Assembly (NCBI GenBank): GCA_004172935.1
Contig: SDZD01000004.1
Location: 1 to 64,000, forward strand
From: a bacterium
Lineage (GTDB): Bacteria > Armatimonadota > Abditibacteriia > Abditibacteriales > Abditibacteriaceae
Direction of reading: 5' to 3'
Length of the DNA: 64,000 nt
Shown here: piece after piece, positions 16,711-53,903 of the stretch
Layout: each line of letters opens with the position of its first letter
How positions within the stretch are numbered: position 1 is the first letter of the stretch
Position numbers and translations under genes: made by a program
Notes under the pieces: model-generated
The model's database searches: none
What the model saw: the letters and a program-made list of their open reading frames with translations, nothing else
Told to the model about the DNA's origin: nothing

Positions 16711-19700
16711 TTAGAAGCGGCGGTTAAAGCCGATTTCGAGCTGGCGCCGTCCGATGCGATAGCCCGAAAACGCGAGTTGCGGGGTATCGAACACGTTGCG
16801 GACTTGCAGGAAGAACTCGCCGCGCGCCGAGGCTTCGCGGGCCAGTCGCAGGTCGAAGTACGTTTTGGCGTCGAATCGTCCACGGGTGATTTGGCCGGGG
16901 ACATCGGCAAAGAAGGAGCCGTTGTGGCGCATGGACAGCCCGACTTTGAAGCCGCGCGAGTCGATGTAGTTGAGGCCCATTGTAGCCAACAGCGATGGCT
17001 CGTAGGGAGCGCTACCACCATTGAAGAGCGAACCCGCCGAAGAGTTCGAGGTTTGGCGCGATACGAGACTGAAGTTGCTGTAGAGGCCCGAAGCCAGGCG
17101 CTGTTCGACGCGAAGGCCGACGCCATGCGAACGCCAGTTGGCGACGTTGAGGACAGGGGCATTGGCGGCTGAAAGTCCGAGTCCAAGGCCGAGTAGGTCG
17201 CTGCCGCCAATGGAAAGCTGGTCGGCGCGCGAGGCAAAGGCGAAAGCCTTCACGAAGCCGTGATTGCCAATGGAGCGTTCCATGTCGAACTGCGCGACTG
17301 AGAGGGCATTGGGCGTGCCGAAGGGCAGAGCGCCAATTTCAGTCGAGGTCAGGGTATCGACGGGAGCGAAGGTGGCAGTTGTGGCATCGGTGGTTTGGCG
17401 GTTGAGCGACAAACGCAGCGTGGTTTTGGAGTTCGAGGCGTAGGAAGCCACCAACGAGGGCAACAACAACGTCGAGTTCTTCGATAGAATGCTTTGGACT
17501 CCGTTTTGGCCGGGTAAGACGAGGTTCGATTGGCCAGTGCGGTTCAGGTTTTGGAGGCGCAACTGTGACGACAACTGCCAGCGGGCGCCGGGGCGGGCCA
17601 TGAGTTGTACGTAGCCAGTCGCCACACGGTCGCGTTGGTCGGCTGTGCGCTGTGCAAGGCCCGTGATGGGGTACTGCAAGTCGCGGCGCAGATTGAACGA
17701 GGTATCGGCGAAGGCCATGCCGAACGAGAGGCGTTGGCCGCGCGAACGCTCGCCAAGCCTTAAGTCGAAGCGCGCTTCGGGCATCAATGCCGAGGAGCGG
17801 AAGTTTTGTTGGCTGGTTGGCAGTGCCGAGGTGGAGTCGATGAACGAGTCCATGTTCGGGTCGCGAGTCCAGGCGTTGCCACGGTTTGCGAACAAGCCGA
17901 GCCACAGTTCGCCGCGCGAGCTGGTTTGGCGACGCATGGCGAATTGGGCTTGACCATAGCCGAAGGTCTGGCGGTCGTCGGAACTGGGCGCCAAGTCGGA
18001 GCCGAAGAGGCCGTTTTTGGTGGATGTGCCGCGAACTGTCGCGTAGAAGTTCGAGGACGAGTTCGGCGTATAGGTGACGAACGCTGATGTGTCGCTCGAT
18101 TTAGCGTCGGCGTTCTGGCGAACACCATCGGTTCTATCGTTGTTGTAGTAGCCGATAGCGTTTAACTTGCCGTCGTTGGCAGTTACGCGCTGAGTGACTG
18201 CCAGACCACGCGAGCTATTGGAGCCTGTTGTTGGCAAGACCTCGGAGTTGATGCCACCGCGCAGCAATTGACGGGATAGCGACGGATCGAAGAGGAACGC
18301 CTGTGTATCGCTGCCGACAGCCAAACGCTTGGCGGCGCCGGGGCGGGTATCGGCGAAGTCGCCCAAGCGTGACAATGCGAGCGAGTTTGTTGGGTCGCGC
18401 ACGAGGGCCTCACGGTAGGCGCGTTCGGCTTGAGTGCGGAGTCCGCCGAATTCGTAGGCCAAGCCCAGAATGGCGCGAGGCTGGCCGAGTTGTGGCGCAA
18501 GGTGAACAGCGGCTTCGCCTGTCGCGATAGCTTCGCTGAGGCGGTTATTATAGAGCAGGGTACGCGCTAATTCGGATTGATACAGCGCGTTGGTAGGCTT
18601 CTTTTCGGTGGCCTGACGGAAATAGCTTTCAGCCTGTTTATAGGAGGCGCCTTCGTAGGAAACCAGACCAAGCGCGGCCAGCACTTCGTCGCTTTGAGGG
18701 TAGCGCGGCAACAAGTCGGTGAGCAGGGTCACGGCCTGTTTCGATTCGCCAGTTGCGACCATGACATGGGCAAGGGCTGAGGCCGAAGGCAGGAAGTTGG
18801 GAGCCAATTCAAGGCTGCGGTTCAAGGAACGGCGAGCATGGCTGTAGTCGCGGCGTGAGGCTTGAGCGACTCCCAACAGGTAGAATCCCTGTGGCAACAT
18901 CGGGTCGAGGGCCACTGCCTGAGCTGCTTCGCGTTCGGCGCTGGCGACTTCGCCACGAGCGAGGTCAACCTGTCCCAGAGTGACACGCGCGGCCACGCTC
19001 TGCGGATTCAGTTCGACAGCGCGTTTGGCCTGAGTTCCAGCTTCGCTCAAACGGTTGTTGAAGAAGTAGGCCAGGGCCAGGTTGCCGCGAGCCAGACCCG
19101 AATCGGGTTCCAACTCGACTGCTTTCTGGGCGGTTGGCATTGCTGCCGTGTCGCCGCGATCTAGTTGGGCTAATGCCAACCATGCCAGACCCTGATAGCG
19201 CCAGCGTGAAGTTGACTGGGATAAGGAGCGCAATGAGCGTGTTGCCACTTCATTTTGACCGGCACGAAGTGCAGCCACACCACGAGCCAACAGCAGTTCT
19301 GGTGCGATTTTGTCGTTTACCGTGGTGGCTTCGGCATTCAGGGCGGTGTTGGCGAGAGTGGCACCTACGCCTTTGGAAGGGGTGGTATCGGCCCATGTCA
19401 GAGCGGCCTGAGGGCGGTTGTTGAAGAGTTCTAACCACGCCATTCCGGCGCGTGCTTCATCCTGGTTGTCTTCGGCGTCGGCGGGCGAGGGGGCCGTTTC
19501 GAGCGAGGCGTTGGTTAATTGGGGAGTGCCCGTCTTGGCGGGAGCCGAACCCAGAGCTAATGTGAATGCGGTGCGGGCTTCTTCGGGGCGCTCTAATTGA
19601 AGCAGAACATTGCCGCGACGTACTGCCAGTTCGCCGCTGAGTTGAGGATCGTTGGAAGCCAGAATAGAGGCTTCGGTGTATTGAGCAAGCGATTCCTCGT

Positions 19701-20484
19701 AGTTGCCCATATCGAACAGAGCGTCGGCTAAATCGCGTTTCGCTTTGGGGTTGTTCGGCGATTGAGTGGCAATGGTGCGGCGCTTTTGCAGTTCTTTCTC
19801 GACTATCTGACGATTCAGCGACACGTAGAATTGTTCGCGTGGGAGAACGGCGTGGTCGAGGTCGAACGACCATGAAACGGTAAGGCCCGCGTTTTCGATG
19901 GTGAGTGGTTTGGTAGGGGCCTGACCTTCGTTGGCGATGCTTTGCTGGTTAGTTCCGACTGTTACGGCGCCGAAATCGTTATGAAAATCGACGGCGCCCT
20001 CGATAACATCGAGAGTCGAGGACTTTTCTGTGGCGACGAGGCGGATTTCGGTTCCCAGAACGCCCAGCGCGGCGGTGCGCGTTTCGAGGACGTTGCCGGG
20101 GCGAAGGCGCGCCCAGATTTCGCCGCCGAGAACGCGAAGCAAGTTGGCTTTGCCGCGTGCGGCGGTTGATGACTGGATTTGAACAGCCGTGTTTTCGCGG
20201 AGCCTGACCTGTGCGCCGTCTTGAAAGAGCAAGGTCAGTTTGGTGCTGGCGCCAGTGGCGACGATGTCGCCCGCGTACAGTGCGCGACGAAGGCGCAGGG
20301 CTTGAACAGCATTCGCATTGGCTGAACGAATGGTGGCTGCACCCAACAGGGTTTGCACAGTCGCCATTGGGGCTTGGCGCGGCGAAGCGTCGCCCAGTTT
20401 GGGGGCGGCGAAGGCTTGGGTTCCGCACGCGCTCGATAGTAGTAGCGAAGCGCTCAGGCAAAGACGTAAGGTTTTGTTTTTCAT
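16711..20484 (-). CDS. FecR domain-TPR array-outer-membrane beta-barrel fusion
   Basis: This 1257-residue secreted protein has a signal peptide ending about AFAAP; an SSAC near 20 is a poor lipobox. A FecR-type domain (about 45-190) contains LRRALYAGDIVATG, a DGAQVRLRENTAV strand and LGVLGTEIRL, the region that in other FecR proteins ends RGTEF. A long series of TPR units follows (about 235-735), then a beta-rich C-terminal region (about 745-1257). This last region has alternating hydrophobic strands, arginine/aromatic girdle residues and a terminal FNRRF ending in Phe, as outer-membrane barrels do. It lacks a TonB box and plug. Its ATG overlaps the upstream TolB-like gene stop (ATGA), and the CHASE2 cyclase follows, so all three are probably co-expressed. 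Confidence 0.78.
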   Translation of the reverse strand: MKNKTLRLCLSASLLLSSACGTQAFAAPKLGDASPRQAPMATVQTLLGAATIRSANANAVQALRLRRALYAGDIVATGASTKLTLLFQDGAQVRLRENTAVQIQSSTAARGKANLLRVLGGEIWARLRPGNVLETRTAALGVLGTEIRLVATEKSSTLDVIEGAVDFHNDFGAVTVGTNQQSIANEGQAPTKPLTIENAGLTVSWSFDLDHAVLPREQFYVSLNRQIVEKELQKRRTIATQSPNNPKAKRDLADALFDMGNYEESLAQYTEASILASNDPQLSGELAVRRGNVLLQLERPEEARTAFTLALGSAPAKTGTPQLTNASLETAPSPADAEDNQDEARAGMAWLELFNNRPQAALTWADTTPSKGVGATLANTALNAEATTVNDKIAPELLLARGVAALRAGQNEVATRSLRSLSQSTSRWRYQGLAWLALAQLDRGDTAAMPTAQKAVELEPDSGLARGNLALAYFFNNRLSEAGTQAKRAVELNPQSVAARVTLGQVDLARGEVASAEREAAQAVALDPMLPQGFYLLGVAQASRRDYSHARRSLNRSLELAPNFLPSASALAHVMVATGESKQAVTLLTDLLPRYPQSDEVLAALGLVSYEGASYKQAESYFRQATEKKPTNALYQSELARTLLYNNRLSEAIATGEAAVHLAPQLGQPRAILGLAYEFGGLRTQAERAYREALVRDPTNSLALSRLGDFADTRPGAAKRLAVGSDTQAFLFDPSLSRQLLRGGINSEVLPTTGSNSSRGLAVTQRVTANDGKLNAIGYYNNDRTDGVRQNADAKSSDTSAFVTYTPNSSSNFYATVRGTSTKNGLFGSDLAPSSDDRQTFGYGQAQFAMRRQTSSRGELWLGLFANRGNAWTRDPNMDSFIDSTSALPTSQQNFRSSALMPEARFDLRLGERSRGQRLSFGMAFADTSFNLRRDLQYPITGLAQRTADQRDRVATGYVQLMARPGARWQLSSQLRLQNLNRTGQSNLVLPGQNGVQSILSKNSTLLLPSLVASYASNSKTTLRLSLNRQTTDATTATFAPVDTLTSTEIGALPFGTPNALSVAQFDMERSIGNHGFVKAFAFASRADQLSIGGSDLLGLGLGLSAANAPVLNVANWRSHGVGLRVEQRLASGLYSNFSLVSRQTSNSSAGSLFNGGSAPYEPSLLATMGLNYIDSRGFKVGLSMRHNGSFFADVPGQITRGRFDAKTYFDLRLAREASARGEFFLQVRNVFDTPQLAFSGYRIGRRQLEIGFNRRF

Positions 20485-48784: not shown

Positions 48785-50023
48785 TCAAGGCAGGGGTAAA
48801 TCGGAAAAGGAAAAGGGCACTTCGGTCTGCACAAAATCGACAGGAGCGTTGAGAGACAATGAGAGTGGCGCTGTAATTTTCGTGGGCGTTAGCGGGCGGC
48901 GTACTGGCTGACCATTTTCGATGACAACCGGGCGAGTGGTTCGGGGATTGACGACGAAGTTCATTTGAACCTTGATTTTGCCGTTGTTCTCGTTCGAATC
49001 ATAGCCCGACTGAATCAATTCCTGTCCAGTGGCATCTTTGATTTTGATGAATGAGAGCAACTGGCTGGTCGAAAACGAAGTTTGGTTTGGGCGGCCATTG
49101 TTCATTACTCCCGTTCCTACAGGTGGGGTAACTTCCAGATCGAGTTGCAATCGATTTCCCAGTTGTCGCGCGGCATTGAGGTCGAGGCGAAGGTCTTGGA
49201 AATCGTGCGTGGCGTCTTTAGCAGTTAGCACATCGGCCACTTGCCATTTTTCGTAGCGAGTTGGCAGCACGTAAACCGTGACACCCTCCAAATGCGTCAG
49301 TTTTTTGCTTCCCCCTTCGATTGTCCGAAGGCGCACACTCGTCTGCGTGGCTCGGCCTGCGTCCCAGTTGAAGTTGGTCGAGGGTTGACGCTGGTCTAAT
49401 AACAACGAGCGCCCCTCCTCATCTTCGGCCCTTGTCAGACGAAGGCGAGGTGTGGTTGCCAGATAAATCTGTGGCTCCGTTTCGAATGCCAGAGCCAATG
49501 TCAAGCTGCTGCTTTCATTACGCAATGGGTTTTTGCCGGGGATGATGCTTTTGGCTGTCGATGAATTAATATTCGCTACTCGAACTTCAAAAGGAGCTTT
49601 TCCTGAGCGTGGTGTGCCGTCGTCGGGTATTGCTTCTGCGCTGAAAACCACGCTCAGTGCATTGCCCCCACGAAGCCGCTGCAATTTCGCCCCGATGCCA
49701 GCCTTTTCCACAACGGCCTGAAATGCCTGTTCGAATGAGCGAGTCTCGATGTCGACCGACAGTTTCTTGCCGAGGTATCTGGTGGCGCCCAAATCTCTGT
49801 CCAATGATATGCCACTCTGCTTTTCGAGTTCGATGAACGCATCCTGCAAACTGACATCGCGCAAATGAAGCACAATTGGTTTCTCTGAGCGCACAATCCG
49901 AATCGCCTCTTCAACGGAAATAAGTGGAAATGGCAGGCCGTTCGTTGGTCTGAGTTCGGGTTGAGCCAGCACCGGTAAAGCGCTGACAACCAAGGCGCCG
50001 AGTAAAAATCGAGAAATATTCAT
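48785..50023 (-). CDS. Secreted STN-repeat protein, tandem paralog 4
   Basis: This 412-residue protein is the last of four tandem paralogs. A signal peptide ends at VLAQP. Two STN-like units follow: IVLHLRDVSLQDAFIELEKQ (about 50-75) and LSVDIETRSFEQAFQAVVEK (about 88-110). The C-terminal half carries the family's own motifs: LRLTRAEDEEGRSL, LTHLEGVTVYVLPT with YEKWQVADVL, and the extreme C-terminus VPFSFSDLPLP. No pore, enzyme or anchor motif is seen. It follows paralog 3 of the row with a 108-base gap. The family name and function are unknown to me; the STN part suggests binding to an envelope partner. Confidence 0.75.
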   Translation of the reverse strand: MNISRFLLGALVVSALPVLAQPELRPTNGLPFPLISVEEAIRIVRSEKPIVLHLRDVSLQDAFIELEKQSGISLDRDLGATRYLGKKLSVDIETRSFEQAFQAVVEKAGIGAKLQRLRGGNALSVVFSAEAIPDDGTPRSGKAPFEVRVANINSSTAKSIIPGKNPLRNESSSLTLALAFETEPQIYLATTPRLRLTRAEDEEGRSLLLDQRQPSTNFNWDAGRATQTSVRLRTIEGGSKKLTHLEGVTVYVLPTRYEKWQVADVLTAKDATHDFQDLRLDLNAARQLGNRLQLDLEVTPPVGTGVMNNGRPNQTSFSTSQLLSFIKIKDATGQELIQSGYDSNENNGKIKVQMNFVVNPRTTRPVVIENGQPVRRPLTPTKITAPLSLSLNAPVDFVQTEVPFSFSDLPLP

Positions 50024-50131
50024 TTGGCGGGCAACAGCTATAGCTATTCGTTTGAGGAAGAGTTAACCGCACTGTTTCTCTTCAGTTACCACCCTTGTCG
50101 GGCTAACTGCTCATAGCAGTCGAAGTATTTT

Positions 50132-51349
50132 CTAGGGCAGTGGCACATCGGAAAACGAGAACGGTACTTGTGTTTGAACGATGTCGGAGGGCGCATTTAT
50201 GACGAGCTTTAATGGCTCCGCGAGAGCCGCTGGCGCGGGGATGATGGCGCCTCCGGCGCCAGGAGTGACGACGGTGCGAGGCAAGAAATAGCGTAGTTGC
50301 AGGGTGAGTTGATTGCCACCCCCTGAACCATTGTAGCCGCCCCCGCCCAGAACTTTTCCGTTGGCATCAAGCAACACAATCGAAGATGACAGTTGGTTGA
50401 ATTGCATCAAGGGGTGTTGTGTACGTCCGAACCTTGCCCCTATGGGAGTTGCGGCAGTCGCAGTGATTTCAAGTTGTACGCTGTCGAGGGTCTTTTGGGC
50501 ATTCTTAACCGCGATATTCACCTGATTGTTGCCTATTTGAAAGTTGTGGCTCACACCATTGGCCTGGAGGACATCGGGGACTTCCCACTTCTCTTGTTTC
50601 GTGGCCAGAATATAAGTCACTTTTCCTTCCAGATGGCTTAATACACGGGTATCGGTGGCAGGGCCGCGCAGTACAAGCGGGGGCTGGAAATTGGGGTCGC
50701 CGTCGAAAAAGGGCATCATGCCCCTATCCAGTAACGAACGGCCCTTATCATCCTCCGCGCGCGTTATCTCGATTCTTGGGGCACCCACTAAGGGAATTTG
50801 AGGATCTGCTTCGATTTTCAGGTTTGTGTTTAGAGTGGTGTCCTGGCTGCGACTCACCGTTTTTCCCAGCCGAACGCTTTTACTTAAAGTAGAGTTCAGT
50901 CCCAGAAGTCGGAGTTGAAACGGTGCTTGCCCCGATAATGGGGCATCCAGATTCTGGTCGGGGTTTTTGCCCTGACTGACTAACCAACGATTGTTCTGCC
51001 CAAACTTCTGCAAATACCCATCTACTCCGGCCTCTTCGAAAATAGCATTAGTCGCCTCTCTAAATGATTGGGTTTCAATATCGAGCGAGAGCTTTTTCGC
51101 GAGAATCGCATCGCCTCCGAACTGGGTATCGATGGTTTGCCCCGTCTGGTTCATAACCTCGTCCAGAGCCTCTTTCACCGTCACATCGCGAAAATGCAAC
51201 TTGATAGTCTTGAGCGCGATTAGCCGCGCCGCCTCTTCGGGAGCGATAACAGGGTAGGGCAAACCATTGATCGGTTTTTCCTCTGGTTGCGCCAGTGCGG
51301 GCAGTGCCGAAGCAAACAGAGCGCTCAATAATACGGGGAAGAATTTCAT
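50132..51349 (-). CDS. Secreted STN-repeat protein, tandem paralog 3
   Basis: This 405-residue paralog has a signal peptide ending at ALAQP and the same architecture as its neighbours. The two STN-like units are IKLHFRDVTVKEALDEVMNQ and LSLDIETQSFREATNAIFEE. It has IEITRAEDDKGRSLLD, LSHLEGKVTYILAT with QEKWEVPDVL, a glycine run near GGGGYNGSGGG, and the C-terminal VPFSFSDVPLP. The first STN unit ends at a TGQTID segment typical of secretin-N folds. Between it and paralog 2 lie 63 bases with no visible hairpin, consistent with one transcript. Confidence 0.75.
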   Translation of the reverse strand: MKFFPVLLSALFASALPALAQPEEKPINGLPYPVIAPEEAARLIALKTIKLHFRDVTVKEALDEVMNQTGQTIDTQFGGDAILAKKLSLDIETQSFREATNAIFEEAGVDGYLQKFGQNNRWLVSQGKNPDQNLDAPLSGQAPFQLRLLGLNSTLSKSVRLGKTVSRSQDTTLNTNLKIEADPQIPLVGAPRIEITRAEDDKGRSLLDRGMMPFFDGDPNFQPPLVLRGPATDTRVLSHLEGKVTYILATKQEKWEVPDVLQANGVSHNFQIGNNQVNIAVKNAQKTLDSVQLEITATAATPIGARFGRTQHPLMQFNQLSSSIVLLDANGKVLGGGGYNGSGGGNQLTLQLRYFLPRTVVTPGAGGAIIPAPAALAEPLKLVINAPSDIVQTQVPFSFSDVPLP

Positions 51350-51412
51350 GAGAACGACGAAATATTAACGAACCGAAGAAAGTTTCTTCGATTGCTACAA
51401 GGCTTGGAGCGC

Positions 51413-52618
51413 CTAAGGGAGAGGCACATTCTCGAATGAGAATGGCACCTGAATTTGAACCAGTTCAGAAGGCGAGTTGATGATGAGTTTCAATGGCTCC
51501 TTGAAAGTGGTTGGGGGCACCACAGGGTCAGGGTTCGGGGGAAATGGCTGTGGTACAGAATAACGAACGCGCCCATTAAGCTCACTGCCTCCGCCACCTC
51601 CGCTAAATCCGCCATTCATGAGAACCTGGCCGTTCGCATCGACCACACGCATTGAAGTCGCGAGTTGCTTGAATTGCATCAACGGATGGCGCTGACCATC
51701 GAAAATGCCTTTTGTCGGAGTGAGTTCTTTGACGCTTATATTAAGTTCGATACCATCATCGGTTTTGCGGGCTGAGAGGACGGAAAGGTGGACTTTGACA
51801 GCGCCCGCTTGAAAATCATGTCCGGCGTCCTTTGCGTTCAAAACATCGGGCAGTTCCCATGTCTCACGTTTGGCGATGAGAATATAGGTGAATTTACCTT
51901 CGAGATGATTAATGGAGCGAGCGTCTGAAGCAGGCGTGCCCAAGCCTAACATTCGGGCACTATTGAAGCTGTCACTGAAAAAAGGAGGGTCTGCCATGAG
52001 CGGCAGCAAACGGCCCTGGTCGTCTTCCACTCTCGAAAATTCGGTGCCTGTACTAAGGATAGGTAAGCGGACATCTACTATTGGTAGCAGGGTCGCGTGC
52101 AAGTTGCTGTATTGGCTAAGGGCGGGAGGCTTCGCCATTCGCATTGTTCGCGATTGGCTTGTACTCAGGCTTATCAATTTGATGGGAAAAAGTTTGGTGC
52201 CGGATACGGGAGCATCTTGACCTCGTTGCATGTTTTCGCCCCATTGAATGCCCAGTGATCTACCGACGCCAAAATCCTGCAACGAGGCTTTTACCCCTGC
52301 CTCCTCGAATATGGCGTCTGTTGCTGTCTCGAACGATTCCGTCTCAATATCGAGCGAGAGCTTTTTGCTCAGTTCTCCTGCTGGAGAATAACGGGTTTCG
52401 ATGTTAATACCCGTTTGCTTCGCCAGTTGCTCTAACGCATCCTTCAACGTCACATCGCGTAGATGAAGTTGGATGGTCTTGAGATTGGCCAACCGTACAA
52501 CCTCCTCAGAAGAAACGATTGGGTAAGGAAGCCCTTTCGTTGGTTGGGGGTCGGTTTGGGCTGCTACGGGCAGAACCCCAACTAGCAATGCGCTCAATAA
52601 AAAACGAGAAATATTCAT
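51413..52618 (-). CDS. Secreted STN-repeat protein, tandem paralog 2
   Basis: The ATG at 52618 is preferred (MNISRFLLSALLVGVLPVAAQ, nearly identical in its start to paralog 4); a frame open to 52684 would overlap paralog 1. The product has about 401 residues. The STN-like units are IQLHLRDVTLKDALEQLAKQ and LSLDIETESFETATDAIFEE. Family motifs are FSRVEDDQGRLL, INHLEGKFTYILIAKRETWE and the C-terminus VPFSFENVPLP. A GGFSGGGGGSE stretch matches the glycine run of paralog 3, so these two are the closest pair in the row. Confidence 0.75.
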   Translation of the reverse strand: MNISRFLLSALLVGVLPVAAQTDPQPTKGLPYPIVSSEEVVRLANLKTIQLHLRDVTLKDALEQLAKQTGINIETRYSPAGELSKKLSLDIETESFETATDAIFEEAGVKASLQDFGVGRSLGIQWGENMQRGQDAPVSGTKLFPIKLISLSTSQSRTMRMAKPPALSQYSNLHATLLPIVDVRLPILSTGTEFSRVEDDQGRLLPLMADPPFFSDSFNSARMLGLGTPASDARSINHLEGKFTYILIAKRETWELPDVLNAKDAGHDFQAGAVKVHLSVLSARKTDDGIELNISVKELTPTKGIFDGQRHPLMQFKQLATSMRVVDANGQVLMNGGFSGGGGGSELNGRVRYSVPQPFPPNPDPVVPPTTFKEPLKLIINSPSELVQIQVPFSFENVPLP

Positions 52619-52667
52619 CGGCGAAGGCGTTTGAGGGAAACGAGGCAAAGTTAAGAGCGGAGAATAT

Positions 52668-53903
52668 TCAGGGGAGTGGGACATCGGAAAATGAAAATGG
52701 CACTTCGGTCTGAATCATCTCGGTCGGTATGTTGACAGTAAAAGAGATAGGGCCTGTTAATTCCGTTCGTTCGGTTTGACCATCATGGCGCTTAGCGGTG
52801 AATGGATTATCGTCTGGTTCGGGCAAGATATAATCCACTTGTACCCGCACTTTATCATCAGTGCCTCTCTGACTGACTCCCCTTCGCCCCGGCATTTGTC
52901 CATTTGCATCTTTAAGACCAATGGCCGACACCAACTGAGTCACTGAGAGCGTTGAAAAAACTCCGCCATTCATCAACTTCCCTCCCACCGGAGAGCTAAC
53001 TTCCAATTCGAGATGAAGCCCTGTTTTCGATGATTGAGCGCCTATAATGGTAACGCTGATGGTTCGGTCGGTGCCTTTGAACTCGTGTTTCAGGTTTTTC
53101 GCGCTTAAGACATCAGCCACTTCCCACTTTTCGTATTTGGTGGGCAGAACATAATTAACGATGCCCTCGAAATGCGATAACTGTTGGCTCCCCGCTTCGG
53201 GAGGGCGTAGATGGACATCCATCTGAGGCCCTCTGGCATAATCTGGCAGCCCCATTAACATGGCCCTATCATCTATGACTTTCAGTGAGCGCCCCTGTTC
53301 GTCTTCGATGCGGGTGACTCGAAGGCGTCCAGAGCCTATGATCGGGATTTCTGGGCCAATTTCTGATTGTAAATTGATGTGAAATTCGCTGTTTTGGATG
53401 CGGCTTGGTGTTTTGCCCAATATCACGGTTTTGAGCCGTGATGAACTGATGTCCTGCAAGCGAATTCCAAAAGGAGGTTTTCCAGAAAGGTATTTATCAT
53501 CCTCCGCGACATTACCCCCAAAAACAACGCTAATATCCCCTAGTTGAAGGCGATCTATTTGGGCACGAACGTTCGCCGCCTTGATAATCGCATTAAATGC
53601 TTCTTTGAATGAGGCGGTCTCTATATCAATCGAAAGCTTAGTCGCCAGTGCCTGAGGGACATTAATTCCCGATGGATGACCGAAGCGTGTATTAAATTGC
53701 CTCGCAAGTTCGGTCAACGCATCTTGCAACGTTATATCGCGCAAGTGAAGTGCGACGGGTTTGTCTGGTTGTATCAGCCGAATCGCTTCGTCCAGTGGCA
53801 CAACAGGAAAGGGAAGGTCATTGGCTGGTCTTACTTCGGGTTGGGCGTGTGAGGGTAGGGCGCACAGGATGACAGCGCCCAGTAGCAAACGAGAGGTGTT
53901 CAT
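52668..53903 (-). CDS. Secreted STN-repeat protein, tandem paralog 1
   Basis: This 411-residue paralog is first in the row, 69 bases after the GMC oxidoreductase stop. A signal peptide ends at SHAQP. STN-like units: VALHLRDITLQDALTELARQ and LSIDIETASFKEAFNAIIKA. Family motifs: LRVTRIEDEQGRSL, LSHFEGIVNYVLPTKYEKWE and the C-terminus VPFSFSDVPLP. It resembles paralog 4 most in the middle motif. Codon use and GC are somewhat lower than in the oxidoreductase next door. As with the other copies, no catalytic residues stand out. Confidence 0.75.
   Translation of the reverse strand: MNTSRLLLGAVILCALPSHAQPEVRPANDLPFPVVPLDEAIRLIQPDKPVALHLRDITLQDALTELARQFNTRFGHPSGINVPQALATKLSIDIETASFKEAFNAIIKAANVRAQIDRLQLGDISVVFGGNVAEDDKYLSGKPPFGIRLQDISSSRLKTVILGKTPSRIQNSEFHINLQSEIGPEIPIIGSGRLRVTRIEDEQGRSLKVIDDRAMLMGLPDYARGPQMDVHLRPPEAGSQQLSHFEGIVNYVLPTKYEKWEVADVLSAKNLKHEFKGTDRTISVTIIGAQSSKTGLHLELEVSSPVGGKLMNGGVFSTLSVTQLVSAIGLKDANGQMPGRRGVSQRGTDDKVRVQVDYILPEPDDNPFTAKRHDGQTERTELTGPISFTVNIPTEMIQTEVPFSFSDVPLP

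Follow-up and report, generated by a model that had tools for sequence, protein, structure and literature searches.

Four tandem STN-domain genes in an Abditibacteriaceae bacterium are a local expansion of an undescribed family of Planctomycetota and some Armatimonadota

Four adjacent paralogous genes in the analysed stretch of 64,000 nucleotides (the window) comprise a local tandem expansion of an undescribed protein family, which is found in Planctomycetota and in some Armatimonadota. Members of this family share an architecture consisting of a signal-peptide-like N-terminus, an optional HEAT-like segment, one domain of the STN/secretin-N0 type and an all-beta module. The best explanation for the array, and in our view a fairly probable one, is that a family spanning two phyla has expanded locally, that its products are soluble periplasmic proteins docking through the STN domain, and that their conserved tail closes the beta module.

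All four genes are encoded on the minus strand; together they span positions 48785-53903 and are separated by intergenic gaps of 108, 63 and 49 bases. They are designated here as W1 (48785..50023, 412 aa, a putatively secreted protein with an STN domain and a beta module), W2 (50132..51349, 405 aa, the copy that was modelled with 28 sequences), W3 (51413..52618, 401 aa) and W4 (52668..53903, 411 aa), among which W4 is transcribed first. W3 was counted from the MNISRF start because the ATG listed at 52684 overlaps the stop codon of the upstream gene. The initial annotation had described four related same-strand genes of about 400 residues with shared internal motifs and a common VPFSF(S/E)(D/N)(V/L)PLP ending, and this description was borne out: the open reading frames encode 401-412 aa, the products are 34-45% identical in pairwise comparison (E 1e-65 or better), and both the quoted motifs and the ending were found in all four copies. 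No extra family copy was detected at E<=1 in the 7.2-Mb assembly besides one marginal match confined to the STN domain. Judged from their sequences, the gene 69 bp upstream of the array encodes a GMC-type oxidoreductase and the gene downstream encodes a glycosidase-like protein. A relative of the oxidoreductase with 70% identity is present in a genome of the same genus (G001), where it lies on contig C26 and the family pair on contig C35, and the array was therefore regarded as unlinked to the oxidoreductase. This relative (C26:75495-77604; L125, L127) is broken into two open frames.

A scan of GTDB genome contigs with the alignment of the four copies found no relatives, probably because these are too distant for confirmation by tblastn. 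With a four-copy profile, the matches of most relatives were confined to the STN part, and a separate search with the C-terminal half was therefore carried out. When the tail plus stop codon was used to scan all GTDB genome contigs, 29 loci were obtained, including 25 titled Planctomycetota, two titled Armatimonadetes and one from Fibrimonadaceae, which showed no tail-bearing frame on ORF testing. A profile was then constructed from 21 full-length relatives of the planctomycete side, containing no Armatimonadota sequence at all, and within a small target set it found the four window proteins with E values of about 9e-43 (W2, the top match) to 1e-33. The same profile still found the window proteins after removal of their first 140 and last 12 residues (E about 7.7e-22 to 5.8e-15), and the best E value among 160 shuffled controls was 0.018. 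The beta module was detected in at least 7 of the 291 Armatimonadota genomes and, at E<=1e-5, in at least 23 of the 294 Planctomycetota genomes of an evenly drawn sample; since scoring was limited to the top candidates in each genome, both counts are minimum values. Some planctomycete genomes hold up to six family matches. The envelope family had been proposed to be lineage-specific, and this view has to be replaced by that of a mainly planctomycete family with a patchy occurrence in Armatimonadota, since restriction to the Abditibacteriaceae lineage is ruled out by the planctomycete tail loci and by profile homology.

The closest comparison is offered by planctomycete proteins such as Gemmataceae L042, L045 and L061, which have the same STN domain, beta module and tail and are homologous by profile; several of them carry a HEAT-like segment before the STN domain, whereas the window copies have none. 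A literature search on STN proteins in Planctomycetes returned nothing relevant. Within the family Abditibacteriaceae, a genome of another genus (G002) has a single gene whose product is 24-26% identical to the window proteins and ends in VPVEFNNLPLP; tblastn of this relative against plasmids gave no match. Adjoining it on the same strand, by inspection, is a gene for a HEAT-repeat-like protein of 734 aa (L027:6595-10112), an arrangement that echoes the HEAT-STN fusion of the planctomycete members.

The genome G001 carries a tandem pair ending in VPFELRDVPVP. In the maximum-likelihood tree the four window copies formed one clade (100/98) with the topology ((W1,W4),(W2,W3)) and the G001 pair formed a separate clade (100/100), which suggests that the family expanded independently in two genomes belonging to one genus. 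Further tandem pairs were found at L054, L038, G300:C429 and G464:C158. Next to the pair at L054 (L054:2872-6255), an ECF-like sigma factor gene lies divergently upstream, two genes off, by inspection. Conserved neighbourhood was considered as a functional clue and rejected: among the 25 of 103 neighbour families listed, immediate neighbours recur solely between pairs of close relatives.

Each of the four copies begins with a short hydrophobic stretch that ends in an A-x-A-Q-like site, and hydropathy analysis revealed neither a lipobox nor a second membrane-spanning stretch in any of them. On hydropathy and this site the four proteins look secreted, in agreement with the signal peptide that had been proposed for them. 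The genome with the array contains seven secretin-family matches, which points to the presence of an outer membrane.

The putative signal peptide is followed by one STN/N0-like domain, located at residues 50-128 in W1 (49640..49876) and 49-126 in W2 (50972..51205) and, with boundaries set by alignment, at about residues 48-124 in W3 (52247..52477) and 50-128 in W4 (53520..53756), all on the minus strand. The initial annotation had counted two STN-like units per protein; these turned out to be the two halves of a single domain. Positions 30-99 of a family profile made from 24 members, which cover both units, align to one PilQ N0 domain (PDB 4ar0) with an E value of 4.2e-6. AlphaFold models of W1 (from four sequences, pLDDT 64) and W2 (from 28 sequences, pLDDT 84.8, pTM 0.80) each show a single beta-alpha-beta / beta-alpha-beta domain, which in W1 holds both units and which has the same order of alpha and beta elements as PilQ N0. 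Two STN domains per protein are ruled out by the profile alignment to a single N0 domain together with the AlphaFold model. Pfam STN (PF07660) scored 23.7 bits on W3, the top scorer among the four copies, and 20.3 bits on W4, both under the curated cut-off of 28.4, and was matched at E<=0.01 by only 4 of 28 family members. The window copies also differ from STN proteins and secretins in that no pore, plug or barrel follows the domain: there was no Pfam match to a secretin pore, a TonB plug or a TonB barrel in any of the four copies, and an STN-type domain free of pore and plug, as originally reported, is thereby upheld.

In a fold search, an annotated DotD fragment matched the W2 model with probability 1.00 over 84 columns, which is the size of an STN domain, and with a target-normalised TM-score of 0.56; for the protein as a whole, the E value of 0.045 falls short of significance. 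By structure DotD is itself an N0 domain, and it is an outer-membrane lipoprotein encoded in the T4BSS locus of the Legionella Dot/Icm system (PMC2951367). The window copies resemble DotD as small, apparently secreted proteins with an N0-type fold and no secretin pore, but they have neither a lipobox nor a T4BSS locus and carry a large additional beta module.

The C-terminal all-beta module comprises residues 138-405 in W2 (50135..50938, minus strand) and is unclassified. No family in Pfam or NCBIfam matches it, so that the C-terminal half falls into no well-characterised family of these collections; no solved structure matches it at E<=1e-3, and a fold search with the whole W2 model likewise gave nothing at E<=1e-3 in the PDB or the viral library. 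No recognisable ligand-binding residues were found in the module. With the initial, shallow model, the fold search yielded Ig-like matches that were not significant, with Bacillus anthracis 3fbq at rank 1 (E 4.9e-3). Several members showed weak matches to DUF5643 (PF18705), with values of 0.1-0.21, 0.021 and 0.0074, which sit in the latter half of the module, and the family profile matched DUF5643/3fbq with an E value of 0.38. Every one of these matches is under the curated cut-off and not significant, and the resemblance is only a lead.

From this anatomy we infer that the proteins most likely serve as soluble binding proteins or adaptors in the periplasm and dock via their STN domain. N0-type domains dock in secretins, in DotD and in TonB transducers. 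In a diderm cell the mature protein would be a soluble periplasmic one, whose STN/N0 domain would dock on a partner molecule or a further copy and whose beta module would bind a ligand or an envelope component; tandem duplication would then produce variants that share a conserved core but whose binding surfaces have diverged. As the neighbours in the families listed do not recur beyond pairs of close relatives, this mechanism is derived from the anatomy of the proteins, and docking from the fold alone. The Pfam STN scores under the cut-off count against this explanation, as does a beta module with neither recognisable ligand-binding residues nor a solved relative at E<=1e-3.

Two other roles are conceivable but less probable, one within a secretin-based machine and one in a sigma-factor pathway. 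The first, an unlikely reading although the best of the alternatives, would make the proteins accessories of the type IV pilus or of type II secretion that dock through the N0-like domain. The relationship of this domain to the N0 of PilQ is consistent with such a role, as are the 7-8 secretin-family matches held by each of the array genome and both of its close relatives and the existence of free-standing N0 proteins in secretion machines, for example DotD (PMC2951367). By inspection, however, no secretin or pilus gene adjoins the array, and none occurs among the recurrent neighbour families elsewhere (25 of 103 families listed); the family is also patchy in Armatimonadota, whereas secretins were present in three of the three genomes tested.

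We consider it less likely still that the proteins are sensory modules of envelope stress or cell-surface signalling, in which the STN domain would act on a FecR-like anti-sigma factor. According to PMC11637429 and PMC7186176, STN domains of TonB transducers act on FecR-type regulators, FecR-domain proteins are encoded in the array genome and both close relatives, and the ECF-like sigma factor near L054 lies two genes from a family member. Against this, no TonB receptor barrel is attached to the domain, sigma and anti-sigma families are not recurrent among the neighbours (again 25 of 103 families listed), and the FecR genes do not adjoin the array. Within the window, a 1257-aa ORF at 16711-20484 on the minus strand, away from the array, has a FecR match in its N-terminal part (19990-20265, E 4.4e-12). 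An improbable further alternative for Planctomycetota and Armatimonadota is that the beta module, as a new fold or domain family, forms envelope rings or filaments together with the STN domain, the paralogs being distinct subunits of a single assembly that exchange their near-invariant closing strand with neighbouring subunits in the manner of donor-strand exchange.

The reading as soluble docking proteins assigns a structural role to the tail, which occupies 48788..48820 in W1 (VPFSFSDLPLP), 50135..50167 in W2 (VPFSFSDVPLP), 51416..51448 in W3 (VPFSFENVPLP) and 52671..52703 in W4 (VPFSFSDVPLP), all on the minus strand. In the W2 model the tail lies mostly within the final predicted beta strand (residues 381-403, pLDDT about 95), and the family consensus VPFxFx(D/N)xPLP, matched by all four copies, thus corresponds to the last strand of the beta module. 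Because the earlier relatives had been picked by their tail, a second search was performed with a tail-less profile. The resulting census comprised 40 members and left out the truncated L088, the C-terminally tail-selected L092, and L100, which is the same locus as L077. The strict tail was present in 24 of these 40 members, as compared with 1% of shuffled ends, and its conservation outside the array genome is thereby confirmed. Six of the 24 strict-tail members have 1-13 residues beyond the tail, among which L144, L150 and L098 have 5-13. Two ORFs consist of two units each, the first of which ends mid-chain in the tail or a variant of it (VPFRFRNVPLPPHEAG...; IPVSLHNIPMTEPP...). These ORFs (L056:4424-6940 and L049:351-2744) contain two full STN-beta-module units and amount to a fused-gene counterpart of the tandem array.

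The initial annotation had suggested that the tail may be a sorting or docking signal, but, although no other stretch of the family is as conserved as the tail, which usually stands right at the stop codon and is retained in strict form well above the shuffled level, a C-terminal signal of the PEP-CTERM or type IX kind, read by an envelope machine of its own, is very improbable, since the tail is modelled with high confidence as an ordered strand, also terminates the internal units of two-unit proteins, can be followed by further residues and has neither a hydrophobic stretch nor a basic cluster after it. The occurrence of internal tails and of tails with extra residues after them likewise does not fit the PEP-CTERM, LPXTG and type IX systems. 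The simplest reading of the model is that the tail closes the beta module as its last strand, and we propose that it has been kept for this reason.

An invariant C-terminus is tempting to read as a sorting tag, and this reading is corrected here: the array is real and unclassified but no new kind of sorting system, its tail most likely being just the last strand of a domain. A putatively secreted family that extends across two phyla and is unnamed in Pfam and NCBIfam now has a confident model, a clearly drawn domain boundary and a closing motif by which members can be recognised, and naming it and assigning it an initial function would provide annotation for many envelope proteins now called "hypothetical".
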